A stretch of DNA of 22,612 nt, taken from a virus. Location of the stretch: positions 1 to 22,612 of the IMG/VR virus record IMGVR_UViG_3300044618_002999. One strand, written 5' to 3'. Positions 4,939 through 20,708 of the stretch are shown in pieces. Position numbers and translations under genes: made by a program. The notes under the pieces were generated by a model that worked only from the letters and a program-made list of their open reading frames with translations, did not search any database and was not told the origin of the DNA. Position 1 is the first letter of the stretch; every line of letters begins with the position of its first letter.

Positions 4939-7900
4939 TAAATTACTCCGCTACCAGGTGCTGTCCGAATATTTGTACTGGTCAAGGCCTGTATAACCTG
5001 AATATCATTCACCGTGGCCGCGTTAACAAAAATTTGATTCGGTGCCGACCGTATTTCATACAAGTCGCCAAATGACTTTTGTGGGTTAAGAGGCACCAAC
5101 ACCACACTACTTACAATGCTGCCAATTTGACTGTGGATATAGGCAGCCAATTCGCTAAAATAAAATGTAGCCCCAAAATCCCATTTGTCTAAACTAAAAT
5201 AAGCATCCATATTGGCCACTACTAAATTTTTAATCTCGCTTGTGCTGGTTGTGGTTCCGGCAGCAGGAATTACCTTGATAATTGCCCGTAATTCTTCTGC
5301 TGCCTTGGCTCCAAATAACGGTTTAAATTGTACAGTGTTTAAAATCATATTGTCAGAGATCATTTTATAATCTTGGAGACCGGCATATTCGGTAGTGAGT
5401 TCATCTAATGTAGGCGGAGTTGGTTCGGGTACCGTGCCGGTTGAATCTTTAATCCAATTTTGATATGCGACATAATAAGTCAAGGTTACAATATAAAGGT
5501 CAATGATATTAGTAGTTCCGGGATCGAGCCGACTTGTTAATGGGCTATTATGTCGATATTGGAAGTATAAATCTTGACGGCCAACTCGAGCAATCCAACC
5601 AGTGACAGGATCTACAGTTCTTGTTAAATCGTTATTCAAGGTCAGTTGATAAAACAGGCCAGCACTGTAATCAATGTTGCTAGTGGCGCTGGTTGGGTTG
5701 TAGGCGTAAAATACTTGACCGTTGGAGTATTCGGCCTTGTCCAGTTCAATCGCGGCCTGTGTAGCATAGTCGCTGTTGACTACACCTTGTTCAACTAACA
5801 AATAGCGTTGAAGATTATCAAAGTCCACAGTTTGTTGTAGGAATACCAATTTTAAATTACTATTCACGCCGGGCGCTACAATGTCATTAAAAAAATCTGG
5901 ATTGTCAGGAACACCATCGGCATCATTGTCCTCAAATCCAACTATGACCTGAAAATCATCAACATACCCGTCGCTTTCTACTGGTTGCCCAATGATCCGT
6001 ACTCGAGTATCGCCTTCGAGTGGAGTATTATTATCGGGCTTGCTGTTGGTTTTTAATATGTTAACAAAATCGCTGATCACTGTGCCGGTGCGACTGTCAT
6101 AGATCTTTTGATTGGTAAAAAAGAAAAATCTAGTTTCTAATACGCTGCCAAAGTAATAGTCCAAACTACGACTAACCACAGTATATGTTGATCCGTCCGT
6201 GGTAGCCTGTATAAACCACGAAGCATCACTGTTGACTCCGGCGGTTGATTGTGCATTGGCAAGGCTAAAATCAGCATTCACATCAAGATTGGTACTATTG
6301 ATCAAATACCATGTGGCGGTCAGATTATTATAGCCCAGACCAAAATTACGATTTAATCGAATTTGCTCAGTGATGCTTTGTGCAAATGTTGTGGTAAAAT
6401 CTGTGGTAAACAGGGGAATAACCTGGGTGGCAATAGCTCCGGTAGGAACAAAGTTGTTAAGTACCACCGGTCCTAACCCATTGGTAAAATTGCCCAGCCC
6501 TTGATTGGTGCCATCGACATAAACGGCAGTTGGACTTGCCCAGATCGCATATTTTTCATTGGCTCTTATGGGAACTCCAGCCACTAATTGATTGTCTTTA
6601 TCAAAGAAATAACCGGTAGGAGCTATAAATTTTACCAAAGACCCAACTTCAATATACTTGGTGTTATTGCTAGAATATGTGCCGATGGATACTGGATTTT
6701 CCAATGAATTTTGAAAATAGCCTGTAGTTTCATTCAATTGTGTAGTGCTTTGGTTCCAGGTAATATTTAACACTGTTAGGTCAGGACGAGTGTAGTTGGC
6801 ATAATAAAATTGTCTGGCACCATCTTCGCCGATCACCGGTTGAATACTATTAGCTATTACGTCAGCAATGTCATTATTGGTTAGCCAGGTAAATTGAAAG
6901 GCTGGCAAATTATTAGCTTCATACAAGGCACCATCGCTGGCAAAAATATTTGTGCTGGAATATTTTCCGGTGTTGTCTACTAGATCAAGATATCGGCTGG
7001 TGCCAATGCTGGCACGATTTAAGGCCTTACTTTTTAAAATACTATTGTAGGCGGTGAATGGAAAGTTATTGTAATCTTCGCCATTGACCATGCGATCTTG
7101 TGTGTAATAACGTGCAGGTGCTCGTTGTTTAATTTCTTGAATGGTCTCACGTGCCTGGCTATTACTTACAGGTTGTGTGATACCGCAAGTAAATGTGATA
7201 GTCTCAATTTGTCCAGTTCGACTAACATACGCAATAGGAACTTGAATGTTTTGCATTTCTTCTGGATTAATAATATATTGTAATCCATTACTGGCACGAA
7301 CATAATTACGGAAAGTTCCAACTGGGATGGTGGAAAAAACGCCATCACCAAAGTTTAATGTAATCTGATCATTGGTGCGGCTGGTCACTGAATATATAGT
7401 ACGAGAACCCGGAGTTAGTTGTTCAACCGCGGCCCCATATACATTATCGGTTTTGATCCATTCTCTAGTTACATTTCCTAAATTGTCAAGTTGGTATAAC
7501 CAAACATCTTCATTGTTAACCCCTTCGATGTTGATGTCTACGGAACGATTACTGATACGCTCTGGCAAATTAAAATCTTGATTTTGTAACACACCTTGTT
7601 TGAACAAAAAGAAATAACCAGTATTGGCGCTGGCAAAACCCAATTGATCATTACGGAACAATACATTGAACTGCCCGTTGGGCAACGGGCGAGGTTCATA
7701 CACATAACTCCGACCAATTGAACTAGCGTTAACCGCTTCAAATGGCATGTTGACTCCGTCAACCGTAGCAGTGTATGGAATCACTGGAATATATCCAGGA
7801 ACTAAATTAATAGCATATTCGCTGGTGTCTACCCCTAAGATTATTTGATTGTTGGCTGGTCTACCTATACGTTGTGTGTTTAATAAACTGGCATTGACAA

Positions 7901-8813: not shown

Positions 8814-10349
8814 CTATCCTATAAATTGTGGTTTGAGCTCAGATAATTTTTTCTGTGCCTGTAAAATATCGGCGTTAATTCCAGCAGTAAGAGCACTAGG
8901 AAATTCAAAACTAGGTGCAGGAATTTTAGCATTTCCTAATATTCTTGCCACTGCAGCATCTACTGTCTGGCGGTTAACCGTATTACTAAATCCTGCGGCT
9001 ACCTTAGTTGCTGATACTAAACTGTCTGAACTAAACAAACTAAAGTCTACACTGAAGCTTGACATTTTTCCAAATATGTCTAGACTACTACCAAGATTGC
9101 CTAGCAAGGCTTGTGCTTGAGTTCCTAACGATCCTAGGGCGCCTGTGGCTATGCCGGATAAACTGCCCAGGGCATTGGTGGCATATCCCTGGGCACTACC
9201 AATGGCTCCAGTTAACAAACCTTGAGCTTGTCCTAAGGCACTGTTTAATACTCCTTGGGCCTCCCCTAGCGTACTATTTAACAATGCACTACCTTGTGCC
9301 CAAGCGGCGGCTACCGGCGCAGTAAATTGAGCAGCGTTATTAACTACTGCACCAACCGATTCTTTTATTAATTGATTGGCTGCAGAGGTGGCCTCGGCAG
9401 TTAAATTAGCAACTCCCTGCGTTACGCTGTTAACTGCACCATTGGCAATAGTTGATATATTATTAATTGGAGTTGATAATAAACTACTGACTGAGGCTGG
9501 CACCTGGCCGGTTATAGAGTTGGTCAGAGAAGTAACTCCCGAAAATGATGAAGTAATAAGGTTATTAAAATTGCTACCAAGTGCTGCAGTTCCAGATACT
9601 AAACTAGCTGCGGTCAATCCTGTTAATCCTGTAGCGCCGTAGATTTGTCCTGTGCTGGTACTTGCAGGAGCCGAGTTTTGGGTTTGGATAGTTCCGCTGG
9701 CAGTTAACGACTCGTAGTTAAGTTGCAGGACTCCATTTTGTATCCGAGTTTGTAGTGCTGGATCATCTAGTATACCGGCCACTGAGGTTACTCCATCCTT
9801 GCCAGTCCATATGCTAGGCGTACCGATTACACAAGCAAAGTCAGGATAATTGCTGGTGCCTGGTTTTAGATATCCTGTTTTTTCTAAAGACTGTGGTGTG
9901 AGATTATAAGTGCCAATACCAGTATCGGTAATAGTGTCTGGTGGTTGATCAACATATACTTCTGTGGTTGTAATCAACGCCTGTACTTCTTCTGGTGATA
10001 ATGGTCCTACCCCGGTGACCGGTCCGGTCATTGCATAATCTGCCGCAGTTATTGGAGTTTGTAAAGGTGTGTTTGCCAACGAAGGTATTGACAGGGCGAT
10101 TTCACCAGTGACAATTGATAAAATAGTCACACGGTCAACTCCGGCAGTATCTCTTTCTAAACGACTTAATTCAAAATTAGTCAATCGTGTTTGGACACTG
10201 GTCAATGTTTGTCCAACACTGTACCCTACAAGACTTCCGGCTACCACCTGACTGTAAAACAACAGGTCAGCTTGTGCCTGGGTGTATCCACCAGGAGTAA
10301 TTAACTCAAATTCGTTACCGCTCGGAAGAGTATATTTAAATATAGCCAT
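8814..10349 (-). CDS. Structural/baseplate protein with 11-residue repeats, unrecognised family
   Basis: 511 residues between the gp5-like spike and gp25; its ATG shares one base with the gp5 stop (TAATG). Three parts can be seen. Residues 1-65 form a compact start (MAIFKYTLPSGNEFELITPG, then AQADLLFYSQVVAGSLVGY). Residues about 145-220 hold a patterned segment (GTYNLTPQSLEKTGYLKPGT, PSIWTGKDGVTS, then LQTRIQNGVLQLNYESLTASG), which resembles a small helical binding module; I only suspect a cell-wall or hub-binding role. Residues about 230-430 are very rich in Ala, Ser, Gly, Leu and Asn, including six hendecad repeats at 358-423. No catalytic motif was found. Its position next to gp5 suggests a hub or needle-associated component, possibly replacing a T4 hub protein such as gp26 or gp28. 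The function is not established. Confidence 0.7.
   Translation of the reverse strand: MAIFKYTLPSGNEFELITPGGYTQAQADLLFYSQVVAGSLVGYSVGQTLTSVQTRLTNFELSRLERDTAGVDRVTILSIVTGEIALSIPSLANTPLQTPITAADYAMTGPVTGVGPLSPEEVQALITTTEVYVDQPPDTITDTGIGTYNLTPQSLEKTGYLKPGTSNYPDFACVIGTPSIWTGKDGVTSVAGILDDPALQTRIQNGVLQLNYESLTASGTIQTQNSAPASTSTGQIYGATGLTGLTAASLVSGTAALGSNFNNLITSSFSGVTSLTNSITGQVPASVSSLLSTPINNISTIANGAVNSVTQGVANLTAEATSAANQLIKESVGAVVNNAAQFTAPVAAAWAQGSALLNSTLGEAQGVLNSALGQAQGLLTGAIGSAQGYATNALGSLSGIATGALGSLGTQAQALLGNLGSSLDIFGKMSSFSVDFSLFSSDSLVSATKVAAGFSNTVNRQTVDAAVARILGNAKIPAPSFEFPSALTAGINADILQAQKKLSELKPQFIG
9081..9278 (-). repeat. Six tandem 11-residue (33-bp) repeats, hendecad type
   Basis: Residues 358-423 of the 511-residue protein divide exactly into six 11-mers: NSTLGEAQGVL, NSALGQAQGLL, TGAIGSAQGYA, TNALGSLSGIA, TGALGSLGTQA, QALLGNLGSSL. 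The shared pattern is (N/T)xA(L/I)GxxxGxx. Hydrophobic residues at fixed positions with Gly or Ser between them fit an amphipathic helix with hendecad periodicity. Codons differ between copies, so this is an old duplication rather than a recent DNA repeat. Confidence 0.8.
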
Positions 10350-11863
10350 TATGGTCCAGTTTTTGTAATGCTTGTACCAGTTGGCAATGCAGGTGCGCCC
10401 GGTGGTGGTGTTGGTTGACCGTTTTCTAAATTAACAGTGACAGCCACACCTTGATTATGATAAGGCCATGGTTCGTGTGTGGGTGCTCTAGTTACAATAC
10501 TTTCTAACCCGGCTGGAGCAACCTGCCAACCGGTACTGCTGTCAAAATTTGTGTCAGGCATAACATATTTGGTGATGCCCTTGGGCGCATCTACCCCCAA
10601 TGCAGGACCACCATTTAGGCTAATTAAAATACCTTTAAGGCTCAATGCTGTACCACCATCAATTGTGGCTACTTTGCTTTTTATCGCTAGCTGCGTGTTA
10701 GATTTAATACCAACTTTACCTTCGCTAAAGAGTGTCATGGTTTTTTTGCAAGCAACCGATAGCTCATCATCACTTTGAATTGCTGTTCCTTTTATACTTT
10801 TTATATTGATTTTTTCCCCGGCAAACATGTTGATATCCTTGTCAGCATGCAAATTAATAGTGCCTTCGGTTCGCAAATTAATTGAGTTGGTACTAAACAC
10901 ATCCAGTGTGCCTTCTTGTCCTAGTTCTACCCAGGATTGGCCGTTGGCATGACAAATATAAAAAGCATTGCCATCATCGCTCATGGTGATCTGATGTCCC
11001 TTGGCAGTACGAATACGAATCAAATTATCGCTGCCATCTAAGGCACCATCATCCATGACCAAGGTATGGCCGCCGCGCCGACCAATCACAGTGGCGGCCC
11101 CGGCAGGTGCGCCTGTACTGGTTACTTGTTTAGTAATGGCAGCATCCGAGGCGCCGCCGGCATAGATAGCACGGCCGGGTGTGGCAATTCCATAACATGC
11201 GCTAGGGCTTTCTCTCTGAGCAGTACTACCAATGCTTCCGCGAATTGGATCGTTGTTTAGGCCTTGTTGAAACAACACTGCGGCCGCATAAGCATGTATT
11301 GGTTTTGGTTGATCAAAGAATTTAGGATTTTCACTTATCTTGGTATTTTCTGGAGGATTGTTAACTTCGGTCACTGGCAATAGTTTGCTCTGAGCAAAAT
11401 AAGTTTCTTGGTTGGCATTGGCTTTTACATATTTGTCCGAGGCACCAATAGCCGGAACCATGCGATTAAGCCCTTGATCTGGTATACACCCTAGATAATA
11501 TCCTAGATCTGGATCTCCACCAACAAAAAAGCACAAGACACTGACGCCCAAGTCTGGCGGGGTAAACCACATACCGTAAGAACTCTGGTTACCAGGATAT
11601 GTTCCGGTGCCACTGGTTCCACTGGAATTGCTTCTGGGGGTTGATCCATAAAATGGTGGACAATAGCTAACGGTGCGCCAACTATCTTTGTTTGCTTGTT
11701 CCCCTCCAAATTGTTCAATAAAAACTTGTAACCGGCCAGCGCGACTAGGATCAATGTTGTTCATCACAACACCAACAAATGGGCCCATCTCGGTCGGGAT
11801 GCCACCTTTATCAAATTTAAAATTGGCCGGGCGACCAGTGCTTTTTTGTATATTTTCTGACAT
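10349..11863 (-). CDS. 5: gp5-like baseplate hub spike, OB-fold plus beta-helix, without a visible lysozyme domain
   Basis: 504 residues (T4 gp5 has 575). The N-terminal part (about 26-135) matches the gp5/VgrG OB-fold: GPFVGVVMNNIDPSRAGRLQVFIEQ, a WRTVSYCPPFYG strand, GMWFTPPDLGVSVLCFF and DPDLGYYLGCIPD. Residues about 262-425 form the spike beta-helix: RRGGHTLVMDDG, IRIRTAKGHQITMSDDGNAF, then short regular repeats (INLRTEGTINLHADKDINMF, KINIKSIKG, KVGIKSNTQLAIKS). In T4 a lysozyme domain lies between these two parts. Here the linker (about 136-260) is Asn/Pro/Ala-rich with no recognisable lysozyme motif, so this spike probably punctures without digesting peptidoglycan. The start shares one base with the stop of the 90-residue gene; the stop shares one base with the next ATG. 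As in T4, it would sit at the tip of the tail tube under the hub. Confidence 0.85.
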   Translation of the reverse strand: MSENIQKSTGRPANFKFDKGGIPTEMGPFVGVVMNNIDPSRAGRLQVFIEQFGGEQANKDSWRTVSYCPPFYGSTPRSNSSGTSGTGTYPGNQSSYGMWFTPPDLGVSVLCFFVGGDPDLGYYLGCIPDQGLNRMVPAIGASDKYVKANANQETYFAQSKLLPVTEVNNPPENTKISENPKFFDQPKPIHAYAAAVLFQQGLNNDPIRGSIGSTAQRESPSACYGIATPGRAIYAGGASDAAITKQVTSTGAPAGAATVIGRRGGHTLVMDDGALDGSDNLIRIRTAKGHQITMSDDGNAFYICHANGQSWVELGQEGTLDVFSTNSINLRTEGTINLHADKDINMFAGEKINIKSIKGTAIQSDDELSVACKKTMTLFSEGKVGIKSNTQLAIKSKVATIDGGTALSLKGILISLNGGPALGVDAPKGITKYVMPDTNFDSSTGWQVAPAGLESIVTRAPTHEPWPYHNQGVAVTVNLENGQPTPPPGAPALPTGTSITKTGP

Positions 11864-12135
11864 TACGCTTCTCTGTTTAAAATTTGGGGTGGAGTAGTAT
11901 TAATTCCGTTATTGGGCCCTAACACCTTGGGTGTATTATATAGTGGTAATGCTCCAGGTGCAGCAACAACTACCGATCCATCCGAGGTTGGCGGTTGTAT
12001 TAATTGTGCTGGTAATGGTTGTGTATCTGATACCGGAGTTTCCTGATCATTAGTGTACGGAGTTGGGCTAGTCGTATAAGACTGGCGTCCAGGATATTCG
12101 GCTGTTCTTAATGCAGATCTTATTCCACGTGTCAT
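11863..12135 (-). CDS. Small proline-rich protein upstream of gp5, unrecognised
   Basis: 90 residues starting MTRGIRSALRTAEYPGRQ, then a Pro/Thr/Ser/Gln-rich stretch with TSPTPYTND and QPLPAQLIQPPTSDG, ending LNREA. It starts 3 bases after the stop of the hub-like gene and its stop overlaps the gp5 ATG, so it is tied into the operon and is probably translated. No PAAR signature (the spike tip of other systems), signal peptide or membrane segment is present. It is probably disordered and may act as a linker, plug or assembly partner of the gp5 spike; that is inference from position only. Confidence 0.6.
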   Translation of the reverse strand: MTRGIRSALRTAEYPGRQSYTTSPTPYTNDQETPVSDTQPLPAQLIQPPTSDGSVVVAAPGALPLYNTPKVLGPNNGINTTPPQILNREA

Positions 12136-12138
12136 ATG

Positions 12139-13680
12139 TTATGCTCCGACCTGGAAAGGGCTAGTAGACTCACCGGTAAAATTTCCTATTTCATCCACAC
12201 CAGCCACGGCTGGCGGCGTATATGGGAGTGTAGCGGCTGTAGTAGCTTGATTTGGTGTACCTGGCGCAGCGGCTGCTGGTGCAGAGGCAGCCATGGCTTG
12301 AAGATCTTTGTATGCTTGGGTCAATAACTTGCCTTCGAGCTCTTGTTCAAATTTACCTTTTGAAAAGGTGCTTCTAACTATTTGCGCCACATAAGCATAG
12401 GTATTTTGCGGGCCGCTACTGGCTGCCACACCGAGCGCAGCAGTTCCACTGACATTATTAGCACTAACATTCATGATACCTGTGTCAAAGTTATAGTCCG
12501 TTGGTTGATTCCACCCAATACTAAATGTAATTTCTGATGCTTCATAGTTAATGGTACCATCAGCATTAAATGGAGCAAAATTAAAATTCTTGGCACTAAC
12601 TCCGGTAGTGACTTCTCCTTGCTGTAACCAAGCGGGATCTCCTACAATTTTTAGTTTAACCGCAGCTTGGTCACCAGGACTATACAAATAATCTGCAGCA
12701 TTAGCGGCAACTTCATTGGCTTGCTTGTCGGCTCCCTGACTGCTTTGAGCACTAGCAACCATGACTGTACGGCGAGTGATATTTCTAGGATCCGATGTAG
12801 TAGTTTCTTGATTTTTTATCTGGCTGCCACTCAACACCCAACGATATAGATTATTAAATTCTTGACTAAAATCTAATACCTGTGTATTTTGTCCTGTAAA
12901 CCAATAATTATAAACCTTGTGCAGGCCTCGAAATCGACTGGTAGGAAAATATTCACTTTGCATCTGAGTAATAGCATAGGTACTGATTGTATAGGTCATT
13001 CGATAAGCAAAATCGTTGCGAAGACTATCCCAGGCCAATGGAACAGCGGTTACATTGATTTTAAACCATGCCATTTGCCCTGTTTTATTATTGGCATTTG
13101 GTACTTGTTTACCTGTGACTTCGTCCGTGGTGTACAAGGCTTGATCGGATATGTAGCTGCTGTTGCGCATGACCTTGTCAATGAACTGTACAATTTGTGT
13201 TCCTGCTTGAACTTTTTCAGATCTAGAAGAAGTGTCTACATTGTTTGTTACTGGAGCCAAAGATCTACCGTTGGCATCTTTAGCTTGCATTGATGTTGCA
13301 CTAAAGTTAGTACTGCCAGGTTTTTTAATCGTGCTGGCAGCCATAGATGCTGGAGCAAATTTTATTTCATATATGTCGGCCACTTTTTGTTTGCCAGCTG
13401 TAACTTTTCCTTGTTGATAGGTGTTTAAGGCCTCACATAATCCAGTAAAAGTTGAATTAACTTTAGTAGCTGCTGCGGCTGTGGGTGGTGCATTGCCAGC
13501 ACTTGTGGGTGGTGCGGCGGCTGCAGCTGGAGTGGCACCAGTTGACGGCACCGCAGTTCCGCTACTGCCAGGTAACAGTCCACCACCGGTTGCACTAGCA
13601 GCACGACCACCAAGTGGAACATAAGCCGGAGTGGTTGTAACCCCGGCGGCTTTTTGTGCTGATTCAAATGAGGTTGCCAT
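12139..13680 (-). CDS. Baseplate hub-like structural protein (possibly gp27-like), 513 residues
   Basis: I choose the ATG at 13680 (MATSFESAQKAAGVT). It is 4 bases after the upstream stop at 13685, whereas a longer in-frame start at 13770 would add 30 residues that merely overlap the preceding gene. Residues about 14-75 are low-complexity Ala/Pro/Gly/Thr. A structured core follows: KVADIYEIKFAPASMAAS, then AWFKINVTAVPLAWDSLRND and FAYRMTYTISTYAITQMQSE, and FRGLHKVYNYWFTGQNTQVL leading to DFSQEFNNLYRW. 'Y.Y.FTG.NT.VL.F...FNNLY' is a pattern I associate with tail hub proteins of the gp27 type, and the location two genes upstream of gp5, gp27's partner in T4, agrees. The C-terminus ends with a motif shared with the preceding gene (GNFTGESTSPFQV). 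The hub role is inference. Confidence 0.65.
   Translation of the reverse strand: MATSFESAQKAAGVTTTPAYVPLGGRAASATGGGLLPGSSGTAVPSTGATPAAAAAPPTSAGNAPPTAAAATKVNSTFTGLCEALNTYQQGKVTAGKQKVADIYEIKFAPASMAASTIKKPGSTNFSATSMQAKDANGRSLAPVTNNVDTSSRSEKVQAGTQIVQFIDKVMRNSSYISDQALYTTDEVTGKQVPNANNKTGQMAWFKINVTAVPLAWDSLRNDFAYRMTYTISTYAITQMQSEYFPTSRFRGLHKVYNYWFTGQNTQVLDFSQEFNNLYRWVLSGSQIKNQETTTSDPRNITRRTVMVASAQSSQGADKQANEVAANAADYLYSPGDQAAVKLKIVGDPAWLQQGEVTTGVSAKNFNFAPFNADGTINYEASEITFSIGWNQPTDYNFDTGIMNVSANNVSGTAALGVAASSGPQNTYAYVAQIVRSTFSKGKFEQELEGKLLTQAYKDLQAMAASAPAAAAPGTPNQATTAATLPYTPPAVAGVDEIGNFTGESTSPFQVGA
12142..12210 (-). repeat. Shared C-terminal motif, copy 2
   Basis: The last 23 residues of the 513-residue protein, AVAGVDEIGNFTGESTSPFQ and three more, match the end of the preceding protein (copy at 13688-13759). 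The consensus is AG(I/V)DxxGNFTGE(T/S)xSPFxV. The DNA is also similar: TCACCGGTAAAATTTCC here (plus strand, 12170-12186) against TCACCGGTAAAGTTTCC in the other copy. Confidence 0.85.
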
Positions 13681-13684
13681 AATA

Positions 13685-15091
13685 TTACGGTGCCACCACT
13701 GCAAACGGACTAGCAGTTTCACCGGTAAAGTTTCCATTGATATCGATACCAGCACTAGCTGTGATGTCATTTACTGAGGTGGCCGGTGCTGGGCCTGGTG
13801 CACTGGTAGCTGGTGCCGATGTAGTTGTTCTAGCGCCTGGATCCACTGTAGGATATTGTGTGCCCACTGGTTTACCTACTAGTATGTCTGACACTGTTTC
13901 GCCAACAAATTCAAACTGTAGAGGAATACTACCACGGTCCTGACTTAGGGCAGTTTGATACGGTATTGGGTTGCAGGTCACATGATATTCGATTTGTTTG
14001 GTAACCAGACGAAATGTTAAATCTCGAATTACAAATGGATAGTATTTTTCAACCACTGATTTGGTACTGCCTTGTCCAGGATACCCAACCAACCCCTGGC
14101 TACGTATGGGATTTACTAAATTTCCTTGTTCATCGTAGCCATAAAATCTAATAACCATGCAATACTGTGCCTGGAGGTAGGCTGCGGCTTTGTCAGTAAC
14201 ATTAGCCTGTTTATACAAGGTAGTCACTGCATTATGCAAATTATTAATTAAAGTTATTCCGTTGGGTTCTGTAACAGTAAATTCAAATTTTTGTGCCGAG
14301 TGTGATAGACCCGATCCTTTGCCTGGGGTATAACTATCAATTATTAAATTGTCCATGTAGTAGTCTAATTGGAAAAATTGATTGCGCCCAATTTGGCTGG
14401 CGCCACCAGTTTGCGCCAGCAAGCTCCAGGTTGAAATATTTTTTGAGCCATTGGTAAAATCTGTGTACTGTGTTGGTGTTAACACATACCAGCTGAGTCC
14501 ATAGGTATAGCTAGTATAGGCATCCAATACATTTGGTTGTGGAATAATTTGTTGATTAAACGAAGCACTGATAATTTGCTGAGCTGGTTTAACAGTTGGT
14601 GCAGTATTGTCTTCACGTTCTGCACCGACCCCGGGACTGGTAGCGGGTGCGGCCACTAGGCTGGAATTTGCATTTGTATTTGATGCTGGAGTGCCTTGAG
14701 AATTTGTCAATGACAAGGTAGACGCTGTTGCGCCATCGGTGCTAACATAAGAAGAATTTACTGTGCCAGCAGCCGGAACAATTCGACCGTCAGCAGCTGT
14801 TTGAATTGTAACTGTAGTTGGTGGTGTAGCTGGATTTTGTATACCGGTGGTGCCGTCATCTTGGGCTACTTGGCCTGCACTGGCAGTTGGCACTGCAGCA
14901 GTTGTTTGTGCCGCCTGCAATAATTCTTGAGCATTGGTCAATTGGTTTGCAAGAACTGCAACTTGACTAGCAATTTGTTGCGCCAAGGCAGTGTTTCCAG
15001 CACCAATGGCAACATTTTGTTGTTGATTAAGCGACGAGATCTGTGCTTGTAAAGTAGCAATCTGTATTTGTAAAGATTGAATGTCTGCCAT
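13685..15091 (-). CDS. Baseplate hub-like structural protein with N-terminal coiled coil, 468 residues
   Basis: Residues 1-65 form a likely coiled coil: MADIQSLQIQIATLQAQISS with Leu/Ile at heptad-like spacing, then Gln/Asn/Ala-rich helices. Residues about 66-180 are a Thr/Ala/Pro/Asn-rich linker. The core (about 185-400) has LDAYTSYTYGLSWYVLTPTQ, an FFQLDYYMDNLIIDSYTPG strand pair, KFEFTVTEPNGITLINNLHN, QYCMVIRFYGYDEQGN, and VEKYYPFVIRDLTFRLVTKQ followed by IEYHVTCNPIPYQ. This alternation of beta strands suits a hub/ring beta-barrel protein. A second Pro/Ala/Thr-rich linker leads to the C-terminal motif GNFTGETASPFAV, nearly the same as in the next gene. The gene begins one base after the gp53 stop. 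I infer that it and its neighbour are partners or ancient paralogues in the hub. No enzyme motif is visible. Confidence 0.65.
   Translation of the reverse strand: MADIQSLQIQIATLQAQISSLNQQQNVAIGAGNTALAQQIASQVAVLANQLTNAQELLQAAQTTAAVPTASAGQVAQDDGTTGIQNPATPPTTVTIQTAADGRIVPAAGTVNSSYVSTDGATASTLSLTNSQGTPASNTNANSSLVAAPATSPGVGAEREDNTAPTVKPAQQIISASFNQQIIPQPNVLDAYTSYTYGLSWYVLTPTQYTDFTNGSKNISTWSLLAQTGGASQIGRNQFFQLDYYMDNLIIDSYTPGKGSGLSHSAQKFEFTVTEPNGITLINNLHNAVTTLYKQANVTDKAAAYLQAQYCMVIRFYGYDEQGNLVNPIRSQGLVGYPGQGSTKSVVEKYYPFVIRDLTFRLVTKQIEYHVTCNPIPYQTALSQDRGSIPLQFEFVGETVSDILVGKPVGTQYPTVDPGARTTTSAPATSAPGPAPATSVNDITASAGIDINGNFTGETASPFAVVAP
13688..13759 (-). repeat. Shared C-terminal motif, copy 1
   Basis: The last 24 residues of the 468-residue protein contain SAGIDINGNFTGETASPFAV followed by VAP. 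Aligned to copy 2 at 12142-12210, about 13 of 19 core positions are identical. The bodies of the two proteins show no such obvious identity by eye, so the motif is conserved beyond the rest of the chain. Confidence 0.85.
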
Positions 15092-15092
15092 G

Positions 15093-15392
15093 TTAGAATC
15101 CTAGCACTGAGCGAAGAGTTGTAATTTTGGGTACATATATCTGTGTATCTGCTACAAAATCTAACGGGGGTTTGGTCAATGTGTTGGGATTACGCTGATA
15201 AAACACCCACCAAAGGCCGGCATTGTCATAAAGGTCAAATGCTAACAGGTCAGGACGATACTGATAGGTGGTATTAATTTTAAACAAGATATCATCAGTT
15301 TGTTTAGGGATAGGTCTATTGACCATTACATCTAGAAAAAATTGACTATAGCCAGTTTGAAAATACGGACTAGTTGGATCATAGTTGGCCAT
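15093..15392 (-). CDS. 53: Baseplate wedge protein gp53
   Basis: 99 residues, shorter than T4 gp53 (196). In T4, gp53 clamps neighbouring wedges together by binding gp6, gp7 and gp25 in the inner baseplate. The sequence has the typical pattern: an N-terminal segment YFQTGYSQFFLDVMVNRPIP, then DDILFKINTTYQYRPDLLAF, and DNAGLWWVFYQRNPN, the LysM-like 'YRPDLLAFDLY...LWWVF..RN' block that marks the family, then VADTQIYVPKITTLRS. The ATG shares one base with the upstream stop (TAATG). Its presence with gp25 and gp6 in one operon supports the call. Confidence 0.9.
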   Translation of the reverse strand: MANYDPTSPYFQTGYSQFFLDVMVNRPIPKQTDDILFKINTTYQYRPDLLAFDLYDNAGLWWVFYQRNPNTLTKPPLDFVADTQIYVPKITTLRSVLGF

Positions 15393-16816
15393 TACCAGAA
15401 TCCTCCTTTGAGCAAGTTTCCATTAGCGTATTCCTTAAGACTGAACTGTTTGCTAACTTGTTGTCGACTTTGCACTGGCAATAATGTCAATTGAATTTCC
15501 ATTTTAGTTGGTACATACGTTGGTCTATTTAGACCTAAGGTGGGCGGTGCAGCACTACCAGTTATGGCGCCCTTGGTCAAAAACGCCGCTGCCAATCTAT
15601 TTACAGTACCAAAAATGCTGTTGGTTGCCACACTTTGCCGATCACGAATATTATTAAAATTAAGACCTGCATTGTTAGGACTTCCAGCACGAATATAGTC
15701 TACATCTGCCGGTAAATTATAATTAAAACTGCTAATTGCACAAGCATGCTCTCTAAATTGATAATCACCAAGGCCTGACAAATATACTAACGGTGGCGGA
15801 GTGCCGCGCTCGGCATCTTGTCCATAAAACATTTTGGTAGCTGAACGTAAAAAATGTATCACTGCCAACAAGTAGTTAGCATCGTTGGTATCCTGCGCTG
15901 TAAATATGGCTGTTAAATTAATTTCATTTACATAACTGTTTTGATACCAATATCCTCGATAGTTTGAGTGAGTTAAATCATACGGAGTATACTGAGCTCG
16001 GTACACGGTGTTTATAGCCGGAGTGTATGGAAATATAATGCCATCGGTGACTTGTAAGGGTTTGAGAATACCCGGATTAGGTGCGTTATATAGATATTTG
16101 GCCTGAGGGGCCAGGCGCAATCTTACACGCCAGTCGCCATTGTTGATCTGTTTGCGTTGATCAGCAATGGTTTTTTGAGCTTGGGCGCCTTTGATTAGCC
16201 CTTGGATATTTGCGTCAGCAGCAGCACTGTCGGCTGATGTACCGGTGCCGGTATTTCTCTCGGTTGTAACTGCACTGACCTCTTGTGGTACATTAGGATC
16301 TTCAGTTGGACTAGCAGCCTCACCATTGATATCGGTTATCGGTAAATCTTCGGCGGCTACAAAAGAGCCATCTGCTTGTTGAACAAATCCACCACCGGCT
16401 GTGGGATCGGTAGCCGGATCGACTGGAAGATCTTCGGCGGCCTGAAACACCCCAGGTGATGTTTCAACAAACCCACTGTCTGCTGCACTCACCGCGGTGT
16501 TGCTATTGACATCACCGTCTGTTACTATTGTTTCGCCTGGCGCCAAACTTGTTGCCGGATCAACCGATGTGGCGGCCCGACTTACTGTTGCAGATGTTGT
16601 TACCAGTGTTTGTCCTGGACTGGTGTTGGTAGTATTTGGTGTTAAAATTAACGAGGTTGCTGAATCTGTTTGCGTAACTGTGCCACCAGCAGCAATGGTA
16701 GCCGCAGTATTTTGTGTAGTAGCGGAAGCAACATTTTGATTTTGCCCAGTGGTATAGCTATCAAATTGCTCTTGGGTTATTTCAACATATTGTCCATCTA
16801 TGAGTACTTGTGGCAT
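15392..16816 (-). CDS. Baseplate tail-tube-cap-like protein (gp48/gp54 type suspected) with low-complexity N-terminal extension
   Basis: 474 residues in two parts. Residues 1-225 are Thr/Ala/Asp/Gly-rich and repetitive, starting MPQVLIDGQYVEITQEQFDS. Residues about 228-474 are a compact domain: DWRVRLRLAPQAKYLYNAPN, GIIFPYTPAINTVYRAQYTP, YWYQNSYVNEINLTAIFTAQ, NYLLAVIHFLRSATKMFYGQ, PPPLVYLSGLGDYQF, CAISSFNYNLPADVDYIR, and a final YVPTKMEIQLTLLPVQSRQQ before the C-terminus. The helix followed by a long strand series ending in 'P..MEI.LTL' recalls T4 gp48/gp54, which cap the baseplate and seed the tail tube; I call this by architecture and context only. It is the first gene of the minus-strand block; AGGA lies 7 bases before the ATG. 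Alternative: another hub or wedge component. Confidence 0.6.
   Translation of the reverse strand: MPQVLIDGQYVEITQEQFDSYTTGQNQNVASATTQNTAATIAAGGTVTQTDSATSLILTPNTTNTSPGQTLVTTSATVSRAATSVDPATSLAPGETIVTDGDVNSNTAVSAADSGFVETSPGVFQAAEDLPVDPATDPTAGGGFVQQADGSFVAAEDLPITDINGEAASPTEDPNVPQEVSAVTTERNTGTGTSADSAAADANIQGLIKGAQAQKTIADQRKQINNGDWRVRLRLAPQAKYLYNAPNPGILKPLQVTDGIIFPYTPAINTVYRAQYTPYDLTHSNYRGYWYQNSYVNEINLTAIFTAQDTNDANYLLAVIHFLRSATKMFYGQDAERGTPPPLVYLSGLGDYQFREHACAISSFNYNLPADVDYIRAGSPNNAGLNFNNIRDRQSVATNSIFGTVNRLAAAFLTKGAITGSAAPPTLGLNRPTYVPTKMEIQLTLLPVQSRQQVSKQFSLKEYANGNLLKGGFW
16334..16477 (-). repeat. Internal 28-residue (84-bp) duplication in the low-complexity N-terminal region
   Basis: Residues 114-133 (SGFVETSPGVFQAAEDLPVD) and 142-161 (GGFVQQADGSFVAAEDLPIT) are offset by exactly 28 residues. 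The core 12-mer ATCTTCGGCGGC occurs on the plus strand at 16346-16357 and 16430-16441, 84 bases apart. A weaker repeat lies upstream (SPGQTLVTTS at 66 and APGETIVTDG at 92). Confidence 0.8.
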
Positions 16817-17831: not shown

Positions 17832-18617
17832 ATGATTAATCGAATTATTCTTGTGGGGTGTTCACATAGTGCTAATTCTGGATTTACTGAACAAAACAGT
17901 CATAAACATTATCCTAATCTTTTAAAAAAACAGACTGGATGCGACGTTATTAATTTGTCAATCGGTGGTATGAGCAACCATGAAATTTTTTTAAGGGCGG
18001 TGGAGTACATTACAATAAGTGACATTAATGAACATGATGTTTTATTAGTGCAGTGGAGTTGTTTACATAGAATATGGGTGTATCAACAAGATAATAATGT
18101 TGACAACTTTACCCAAGTATTACCTCACCCAAGTGGACTCAATCCAGATTTAGCATGGCCGTTGTATAAGACCCATTCTGCTTATTATTGCAATGATTAC
18201 ATGGCACTAAAATTTTGGTTTGAATATATGATTTCTCTACAAGCAGTATGCAAATTAAAAAATATTAACTATGTATTTGTAAATGGGTCTAATAATTTAG
18301 TCGACAAATTGAATGTTTATCGTAATCAAACTATTACTTCATTAGAAAATATTAATCTTTGCGAAAATTTAAGGAAAATACTTGATTTTGATAATCGGGA
18401 TGATTCGTACATATTACAGAAACTAAACATTCTTCTTGGTCTATATAACCAACTTGATTTTAATAATTGTTTAAAATTTGGAGCATTTTATTTTGGCCAA
18501 GCTGAATTGGATTTGTCAGATGATAACAGACATTTTGGAGAGCAGTGTAATCTACTTTGGGCCGATGAGATTCTACATCACCTAGATAGAAATTGCCAGT
18601 CTGATTGTAATTTATAA
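17832..18617 (+). CDS. SGNH/GDSL-type hydrolase-like protein
   Basis: 261 residues; begins 5 bases after the gp55 stop. The SGNH blocks can be traced: nucleophile block IILVGCSHS (Ser11), NLSIGGMSNHEIF (Gly46, Asn49; oxyanion-hole block), DVLLVQWSCLHR (residues 69-80; the strand with 'vqWs..R' seen in phage members of this fold), and DDNRHFGEQCNLLWADEI, where Asp231 and His234 would complete the triad. SGNH proteins hydrolyse esters, often acetyl or acyl groups on sugars. The substrate here is unknown; host polysaccharide or a modified nucleotide are guesses. No signal peptide or membrane segment is seen. Base composition is very AT-rich (about 22% GC over 18241-18360) compared with gp47, which points to later acquisition. 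No clear ribosome binding site was seen, so it may be coupled to gp55. Confidence 0.65.
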   Translation: MINRIILVGCSHSANSGFTEQNSHKHYPNLLKKQTGCDVINLSIGGMSNHEIFLRAVEYITISDINEHDVLLVQWSCLHRIWVYQQDNNVDNFTQVLPHPSGLNPDLAWPLYKTHSAYYCNDYMALKFWFEYMISLQAVCKLKNINYVFVNGSNNLVDKLNVYRNQTITSLENINLCENLRKILDFDNRDDSYILQKLNILLGLYNQLDFNNCLKFGAFYFGQAELDLSDDNRHFGEQCNLLWADEILHHLDRNCQSDCNL

Positions 18618-19658: not shown

Positions 19659-19855
19659 GTTGGCGATCAGTGCAATTAAGCAATGACTTGTGTGAGCAAG
19701 ATCAATTAATAGTAAATTTGTGCAAAGAAAACTTGGTAAACTATGTTGGTACAGACGCTAAGTTTGCACAACTTTTACATTGTTACCCGTTGGCTACTAA
19801 TTTAGTGTCAACAATCCAATTTAAAATTAAAAATCCTGATGCTAATACCAATTGA
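19655..19855 (+). CDS. Small unrecognised protein between gp47 and the 289-residue gene
   Basis: 66 residues (MSWRSVQLSNDLCEQDQLIV ... NPDANTN). The ATG overlaps the gp47 stop as ATGA, and the 3' end overlaps the next gene by 17 bases, so it is probably translated by coupling. The chain looks like a small helical protein with two Cys in the first half and no metal-binding pattern or membrane segment. It lies where T4 has the small gene 47.1, but I cannot claim homology. A role tied to the 46/47 nuclease is only suggested by position. Confidence 0.55.
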   Translation: MSWRSVQLSNDLCEQDQLIVNLCKENLVNYVGTDAKFAQLLHCYPLATNLVSTIQFKIKNPDANTN

Positions 19856-20708
19856 TTTTGTAGCGGGCACTCATGGCCATTTTTTAGAAGTAGTATTAAA
19901 TAATTTTTTTAACACTGCCGCACCAACTCTGGACCCCTTTAACTCACTTGGTGCAAGTCACAAAGTTAATTCTAAATATTTAAACTCGAGGATATTTGTG
20001 GCCCAACATTGGTTTGAAGATCCTAGTGATCGGTTGTCTCAATTTAATCGTGCAATTTCTATACAATTTGATCAGGACGATTTATTATTAGTATCGTCGG
20101 TGAGCTTATTACGAGCTGGTGATCAAGGACTTGATAACAATCAATTAGAAATTAATACTTATTCTAAACTTAGTAACGATTTTTATCAAGAGATGTTAGT
20201 AGAAATTTTAAATGCATACCCAAATGTTGATACCGGCAGCGGCTCGATTCCTAGAAACATTTTAAGAGAATTTTTTAAATTTGGGTTTTCAAATCCAAAT
20301 ATCAATGGCTATTGGAAAAAACAACAACAAATGCACTATACAATGCCGGTGTTTATATTTAAATTTAAAGCATTTTATAATTATAATTTGTTTGTTGATA
20401 CTTTAAAAAAATTGCAAAATTTTATAGAAATACCTTTTAAATTCGATAGTAATCTCGAAATGCTACACAAAAAATTTCTAACTTTAATACCATATATTGG
20501 TCATAAGGTGCAGTGCGATAATATTATATCGGCTATCCAACGAGGTCAACCACAACGCATTCCTTCGTTGACACTGTTTCAAGAAAGTTATATTAATGGC
20601 CAGTTAGAAAATATTTACAAAAAAGAGATGCCATTTCATAACCTAACCTACTTTACATCTACAAAAGATGTGTTACAATATTTAGAAACTCGGGCACCTA
20701 ATCTATGA
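19839..20708 (+). CDS. Unrecognised 289-residue protein inserted between gp47 and gp46
   Basis: Begins MLIPIDFVAGTHGHFLEVVL. The GTHGHFLE turn after a hydrophobic strand looks like a nucleotide- or phosphate-binding loop and faintly recalls sulfotransferase-like P-loops, but no further motif confirms this. The middle has LDNNQLEINTYSKLSND, then NILREFFKFGFSNPN and a very aromatic run (VFIFKFKAFYNYNLFVDTL); the C-terminus is helical (YINGQLENIYKKEMPF). No signal peptide is evident. Composition is very AT-rich (about 20% GC at 20341-20400), like the SGNH-type gene and unlike gp47. It starts inside the 66-residue gene and ends in an ATGA overlap with gp46, so it is locked into the operon. Function unknown. 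Confidence 0.65.
   Translation: MLIPIDFVAGTHGHFLEVVLNNFFNTAAPTLDPFNSLGASHKVNSKYLNSRIFVAQHWFEDPSDRLSQFNRAISIQFDQDDLLLVSSVSLLRAGDQGLDNNQLEINTYSKLSNDFYQEMLVEILNAYPNVDTGSGSIPRNILREFFKFGFSNPNINGYWKKQQQMHYTMPVFIFKFKAFYNYNLFVDTLKKLQNFIEIPFKFDSNLEMLHKKFLTLIPYIGHKVQCDNIISAIQRGQPQRIPSLTLFQESYINGQLENIYKKEMPFHNLTYFTSTKDVLQYLETRAPNL

Follow-up and report, generated by a model that had tools for sequence, protein, structure and literature searches.

A probable split baseplate hub whose pieces carry a conserved, exchangeable C-terminal tag

INTRODUCTION

In contractile injection systems, the central hub sets the change from threefold to sixfold symmetry at the tip of the machine. The described hubs of contractile tails (T4 gp27, Mu gp44 and the VgrG/PVC proteins) are single chains, each with two tube-like domains and a hub domain, and are encoded near a gene for a gp5-like spike. 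In the T4 gp27 trimer, the two tube-like domains of each subunit alternate in a pseudo-sixfold ring. The locus described here shares both protein family and gene order with PHROG 11190, which includes gp349 of phage PA5oct, a jumbo-phage virion structural protein annotated as detected by ESI-MS/MS.

Peptide addresses are known from another part of the virion. The capsid targeting sequence of T4 is N-terminal. It is a short conserved peptide which sends diverse internal proteins into a virion substructure (PMC3012670). Since it acts on the head core and not on the baseplate, we use it only as an analogy of how a tag might work.

Here we describe a locus of an uncultured tailed jumbo phage in which the hub, a known machine part, is very probably made as two or three separate polypeptides that have disordered linkers and end in tags, unlike the single-chain hubs named above. 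The fragmentation and the exchangeable end-tags are what is new.

RESULTS

Two adjacent proteins share a C-terminal tail

The window, that is, the whole stretch of viral DNA that was analysed, is 22,612 nucleotides long. Its relevant features are listed below, with the evidence in brackets.

15392-16816, minus strand: virion structural protein, P0003, upstream in the block (PHROG 12050; in the position of PA5oct gp347 by synteny)
15093-15392, minus strand: gp53-like baseplate wedge protein, P0007 (PHROG 7145)
13685-15091, minus strand: probable front piece of the split hub, P0002, 468 aa, gp27/gp44/VgrG-like (sequence, relatives and model)
13952-14533, minus strand: predicted tube-like domain of P0002, residues 187-380 (AlphaFold2 model m8f6abb619467 and VIA-align)
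13688-13753, minus strand: C-terminal tag copy 1, AGIDINGNFTGETASPFAVVAP (BLASTP, DNA pattern, relatives)
12139-13680, minus strand: probable back piece of the split hub, P0001, 513 aa (sequence, relatives and model)
12316-13446, minus strand: predicted hub domain of P0001, residues 79-455, including a tube-like part at about 261-457 (AlphaFold2 model m4d16eed852b9 and VIA-align)
12142-12204, minus strand: C-terminal tag copy 2, AGVDEIGNFTGESTSPFQVGA (BLASTP, DNA pattern)
11863-12135, minus strand: probable third piece, P0004, 90 aa, a one-time disordered C-terminal extension of the hub (fused in L005)
10349-11863, minus strand: gp5-like spike, a tail lysozyme-type hub partner, P0005 (PHROG 13211; PF04717 weak, PF10106 weak)

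The gene order is P0003, gp53-like, P0002, P0001, P0004, gp5-like, P0006, gp25-like and large wedge-like. P0002 is laid out as an N-terminal coiled-coil hairpin (residues 4-65), a disordered stretch, the tube-like domain (about 187-380), a linker and the C-terminal tag; P0001 has a disordered N-terminus, the hub domain (about 79-455), a linker and again a C-terminal tag.

The earlier note had claimed that the two neighbouring proteins end in a common motif while their bodies are diverged, and this is borne out. When the 468-aa and 513-aa proteins were compared by BLASTP, significance was confined to the tails (48 aa, 52% identity, E=2e-6, composition-adjusted), whose last 21 or so residues are directly followed by a stop codon in both cases. 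Homology of the bodies, and hence of the proteins along their full length, was not found by BLASTP or by profile-profile comparison (hhalign probability 0.2%, with 66- and 67-member profiles), which leaves the suggested remnant of a duplication of the bodies without sequence support. The DNA pattern for GNFTGE has exactly two matches in the window, one in each tail, and the reversed pattern has none. An assembly artefact is ruled out, because the same genes occur on four further contigs. The shared tail is thus a real feature and not a product of chance.

The note had also stressed a near-identical 17-base DNA core. The core, GGAAAYTTTACCGGTGA, does have 16 of 17 bases equal between the copies (at 12169-12186 and 13718-13735). 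As a mark of special kinship it is unremarkable: core DNA identity is at least 16/18 in 28 of the 190 tail pairs from different phages, and by codon identity the window pair comes 33rd among the 190. The DNA similarity of the two tail cores is therefore not special when set against tails of different phages.

The two proteins as probable front and back pieces of one hub

In the AlphaFold2 models, P0002 has a coiled-coil hairpin at its N-terminus and, at 187-380, a tube-like domain; P0001 has a hub domain at 79-455. In VIA-align searches, the P0002 domain matched tube, tube-initiator and hub N-terminal domains with Z 6-8, and the P0001 domain matched the Algoriphagus CIS hub (7aef_q, Z 8.5), Mu gp44 (1wru, Z 7.7) and VgrG (4mtk, Z 6.7). 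The front and back models fall on successive parts of 3d37 (6-95 and 119-340), 9h4p_BD (20-119 and 135-345) and 9vzk_1 (18-118 and 194-337), and on successive but overlapping parts of 4mtk and 6rbk. Both models also align with the tail-tube protein 7t2e_A over its length, through residues 187-380 of P0002 and 261-457 of P0001. The scores are moderate throughout (Z 4.7-8.5), and for the P0002 domain tube-initiator proteins are about as good a match as the N-terminal domains of hubs. Sequence profiles of the pieces gave no relevant match to solved structures. At this moderate level, the pair has the composition of a hub, with one tube-like domain on the N-terminal side and another inside the part that comes next, and its genes adjoin those of a gp5-like spike and other baseplate proteins. 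The weak to moderate likeness of the tube-like domains in the two bodies does not by itself decide whether they have a common origin.

In about half of the environmental relatives (numbered with the prefix L), the two pieces form one chain, mostly of 830-1060 aa and up to 1062 aa; these fused hubs include L007 and L009-L033. Likewise, within the 753 positions of PHROG 11190, P0002 was matched at 63-208 (E=3e-10) and P0001 at 330-488 (E=1.3e-6). This single-chain form is absent from the window, which has two genes and a 90-aa third in its place, and is present in 33 representatives and in the isolates. Among named phages, the profiles of both pieces match one and the same chain in PA5oct (gp349), Atu_ph07 (gp698) and RaK2 (gp456), with the front-then-back order clear in PA5oct and the front match weak in RaK2. 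All three phages have the same gene block, in which the single-chain hub lies between the gp53-like wedge and gp5-like spike genes. A tblastn search of named phages with either piece gave no match, and these phages were reached only via the spike protein and the profiles. PA5oct gp349 differs from the window proteins in being one chain, without a tag and without a C-terminal extension.

The successive structure alignments and the gene order together argue for the pair as a central hub in split form. Thus P0002 and P0001 are very probably the front and back pieces of a single hub of the gp27/gp44/VgrG kind, with the shared tail as a conserved tag. The description of two adjacent hub-like proteins therefore holds as regards their identity, but they are better seen as two parts of one hub. 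PHROG 11190 and PHROG 12050 are filed under head and packaging, while their genes sit in the baseplate block both in the window and in the isolates. Gene order and fold say that PHROG 11190 is a baseplate hub and not a head protein, and its annotation is corrected accordingly.

The relative nearest by body sequence, L005, has P0004 joined to its back piece (small comparison, E=3e-7), so that the window virus has one extra gene break relative to L005. At split-hub junctions in the clade, the stop and the next start are no more than a few bases apart. Fission as opposed to fusion is argued solely from the isolates being fused, because in the PA5oct-rooted tree the PA5oct branch, at 7.8 changes per column, is too long.

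Breaks and fusions of genes are frequent throughout this baseplate block. The spike gene (P0005) is fused to P0006 in L009 (10440-12959) and L069 (4128-6611), and P0006 is split in two in L006, L155 and L160.

The tag is conserved on front pieces of split hubs

A search for the motif in related phages showed that about 18 other split-hub sequences have the tail, in conserved form, at the C-terminal end of their front piece (L040, L042-L045, L054, L059, L071, L082, L086, L115, L117, L120, L121, L131, L133, L136, L139 and L141, the last being a 57-aa fragment at the expected place). The back pieces of these relatives end differently, so the tail is nearly always a property of the first protein only and not, as in the window, of both. 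A scan of all viral contigs for GNFTGxxxSPF returned 28 stretches, all of them in hub pieces except for one chance ORF in two contigs. The same pattern, run over 257 Gb of bacterial and archaeal genomes, returned seven stretches, none of them an ORF ending in the motif. Other protein families and bacterial genomes were considered as homes of the motif, and were set aside since these two scans gave nothing beyond chance. No description of the motif was found in the literature searched, the coverage of which was incomplete.

Across the tag, pS is 0.73-0.84, near saturation. The corresponding pN is 0.03 in GxFTG, 0.18 in the six residues before it and 0.28 in xxxSPF; the loci were chosen by body, a separate estimate gave similar figures, and the low value in the core is partly due to the tails having been picked by motif, which the flanks were not. 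As pS is near saturation while pN is low, selection acts on the peptide and not on the DNA alone.

A second tag, and exchange between lineages

Other split front pieces end in a second tag, AAGTDPNxVNDQGMAFGGGGL, for which pS is 0.64 and pN 0.11. Among de-duplicated representatives, 30 of the 52 front pieces have a C-terminal tag (16 the first and 14 the second), compared with one of 55 back pieces, the window's own, and none of 33 fused hubs. Many split front pieces have neither tag.

The tag types are interleaved on the tree of front-piece bodies, which forces at least four changes, and between close relatives the first tag has been gained, lost or replaced by the second. The clearest case is that of the sisters L082 and L081, which have different tags although their other baseplate proteins are 84-99% identical, with 85-99% for wedge, spike, back piece and gp25-like protein; strong differences between the two are found only in the N-terminal region of P0003 and in the tag. 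Since the sisters are otherwise near-identical, the tag moves as a module while the folded proteins next to it stay unchanged. The tag has thus been exchanged between lineages as a module.

The second copy on the back piece

The first tag is found on a back piece only in the window virus, at the extra gene break. Copy 2 follows the final hairpin of the hub domain; its last codons (GTCGGAGCA) double as a Shine-Dalgarno-like GGAG eight bases before the ATG of P0004, so that it carries its own stop and Shine-Dalgarno sequence and opens a new gene. The P0004 ATG is in frame with the stop of P0001 (TAA CAT ATG, window 12133-12141); read-through at the TAA would therefore give a protein of about 605 aa, near the 596 aa of the fused protein in L005.

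A parallel is seen in L154 and L166, where the hub is one chain that ends before the last hairpin (profile position about 382 of 486). The next gene (L154, 5067-6017; L166, 5963-6895) is chimeric: it encodes a front-piece-type N-terminal leader, the missing beta-hairpin (390-454) and the second (GMAF) tag. Tag and linker of this chimera are 76-82% identical to those of the L148 front piece. The second tag was placed there independently of the window virus, so that the position behind the final hairpin of the hub has been reached by a tag on at least two occasions, each time by a different one.

DISCUSSION

A tentative role in docking

The earlier note had offered a docking signal or assembly tag as one reading of the tail. 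Of the readings considered, this fits best with a conserved C-terminal peptide that is under selection at the amino-acid level and confined to hub pieces. The docking step itself is a tentative assignment, to which we give slightly less than even odds. In this clade the hub gene is very probably broken into separate genes, with the tag normally on the front piece only, and in the window virus a second copy arose, or was acquired, at the extra break behind the back piece. In the proposed docking mechanism, each tube-like domain would finish in a beta-hairpin, after which a flexible linker, about 45-70 residues long, would have the tag at its end. The tag would bind to a neighbouring component of the baseplate or tube and, once bound, would help to keep the separately made piece in the assembled hub. 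In the models the tag is weakly structured (pLDDT about 69 on P0002 and below 40 on P0001). We put the probability of the whole statement, a split hub with a conserved, exchangeable tag that acts as a docking peptide, at roughly 0.45.

Because the gp27-type trimer is pseudo-sixfold, a hub tagged on both of its pieces, as in the window virus, would display six equivalent tags and not three. No protein obviously covaries with the tag, given the near-identical spike, wedge and back piece of L082 and L081, which makes a strict lock-and-key fit with any of these three unlikely unless both tags fit one site. A fuller picture is more doubtful: in this group of uncultured jumbo phages the hub gene would be cut at several places, and exchangeable C-terminal peptides, at least two types of which can occupy one and the same position, would address the pieces to the tail tip; the window virus, with the tag behind both of its pseudo-equivalent tube-like domains, would display it in sixfold in place of threefold arrangement. 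Were a hub made of pieces with swappable end-tags, it would show which covalent links the machine can spare, and the tag would offer a natural peptide address for the tail tip.

Alternatives to docking

The strongest rival, which we nevertheless consider unlikely, is that what moves is a gene-end module of tag codons, stop, Shine-Dalgarno sequence and start, which sets translational coupling while the peptide does little. Indeed, many tails end in GTAGGAGCATAA-nn-ATG or GGTGGAGGATTATAATG, from which it follows that the last codons supply the ribosome-binding site of the next gene; the swapping of tags between close relatives and the arrangement at copy 2, where the tag brings its own stop and Shine-Dalgarno sequence and opens P0004, would also be expected. 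However, such a module would account for the final VGA or GGGGL codons and not for the conserved GNFTG and GMAF cores, which lie some 20-45 bases upstream of the stop. Moreover, third positions vary while residues are fixed, and there are VVAP variants that have no Shine-Dalgarno sequence.

Somewhat less likely again is that copy 2 is simply the virus's own front-piece tail, duplicated by illegitimate recombination and persisting as a relic. Its presence on a back piece in the window virus only, and the 16/17 identity of the two DNA cores, would fit this origin. On the other hand, when the origin from the virus's own copy was assessed by codon identity, with synonymous sites near saturation, the two window tails were no more alike than cross-phage pairs (rank 33 of 190). 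The QVGA end of copy 2 is common to the front pieces of L054, L059 and L071, and this end together with DE-x-G-x-FTGES places copy 2 closer to the front-piece tails of L059 and L071. A relic would also not be expected to keep its core amino acids intact despite synonymous divergence, and in L154 and L166 a tag arrived at the corresponding position independently.

It is improbable that the tags serve as caps which protect disordered linkers from C-end-dependent proteolysis by the host: they do occur only at free C-termini of such linkers, and different tags are interchangeable, but many split pieces are untagged and capping would not need the strict conservation of GNFTG..SPF. Least likely is the cleavage tag that the earlier note had also raised, in which a maturation protease would cut between FTGE and xxSPF and trim the end of each piece. 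T4-like and phiKZ-like phages do have prohead proteases that cleave behind a Glu, and the motif contains TGE. However, this Glu, which alone could plausibly serve as P1, is replaced by D in many relatives, by S in L044 and by Q in L047. The residues that would be discarded, SPF and the end, are conserved nonetheless, and the second tag has no such site.

OTHER OBSERVATIONS

A search for short modules shared across protein families gave 110 matches at E<1e-3, compared with none for reversed sequences. Of these, 47 between P0001 and P0002 cluster on the truncated fused hub of L089 and were discarded as an artefact. In L140 and L127, DPNAPPYTGDDPIVRQRLGLPPL is present close to the end of P0006 as well as of the back piece. 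The shared tail of the window proteins is one instance of such module sharing in the disordered ends of baseplate proteins.

A module of the form xDPI[VI]RxRLG[LI]PxLP is common to several otherwise unrelated baseplate proteins, sometimes twice per contig. Its carriers are the ends of the back piece and P0006 in L140 and L127, and P0003, P0006 and the hub in L150 and L154. The L006 back piece (5081-6715) has one module at both of its ends (EEWRLKQLQNQLPQR and EDWRRAQLNNQLPQR).

Within the window, the disordered N-terminal part of P0003 (residues about 110-170) contains an internal repeat, GFVETSPGVFQAAEDLPVDP / GGFVQQADGSFVAAEDLPITD. Two further ORFs lie on the plus strand. The first (17832-18617, 261 aa, starting MINRIILVGCSHSANSGFTE) is SGNH/GDSL-like by eye and is situated between the late sigma factor-like and gp47-like genes; the second (19839-20708, 289 aa), of no assigned kind, lies between the gp47-like and gp46-like genes.
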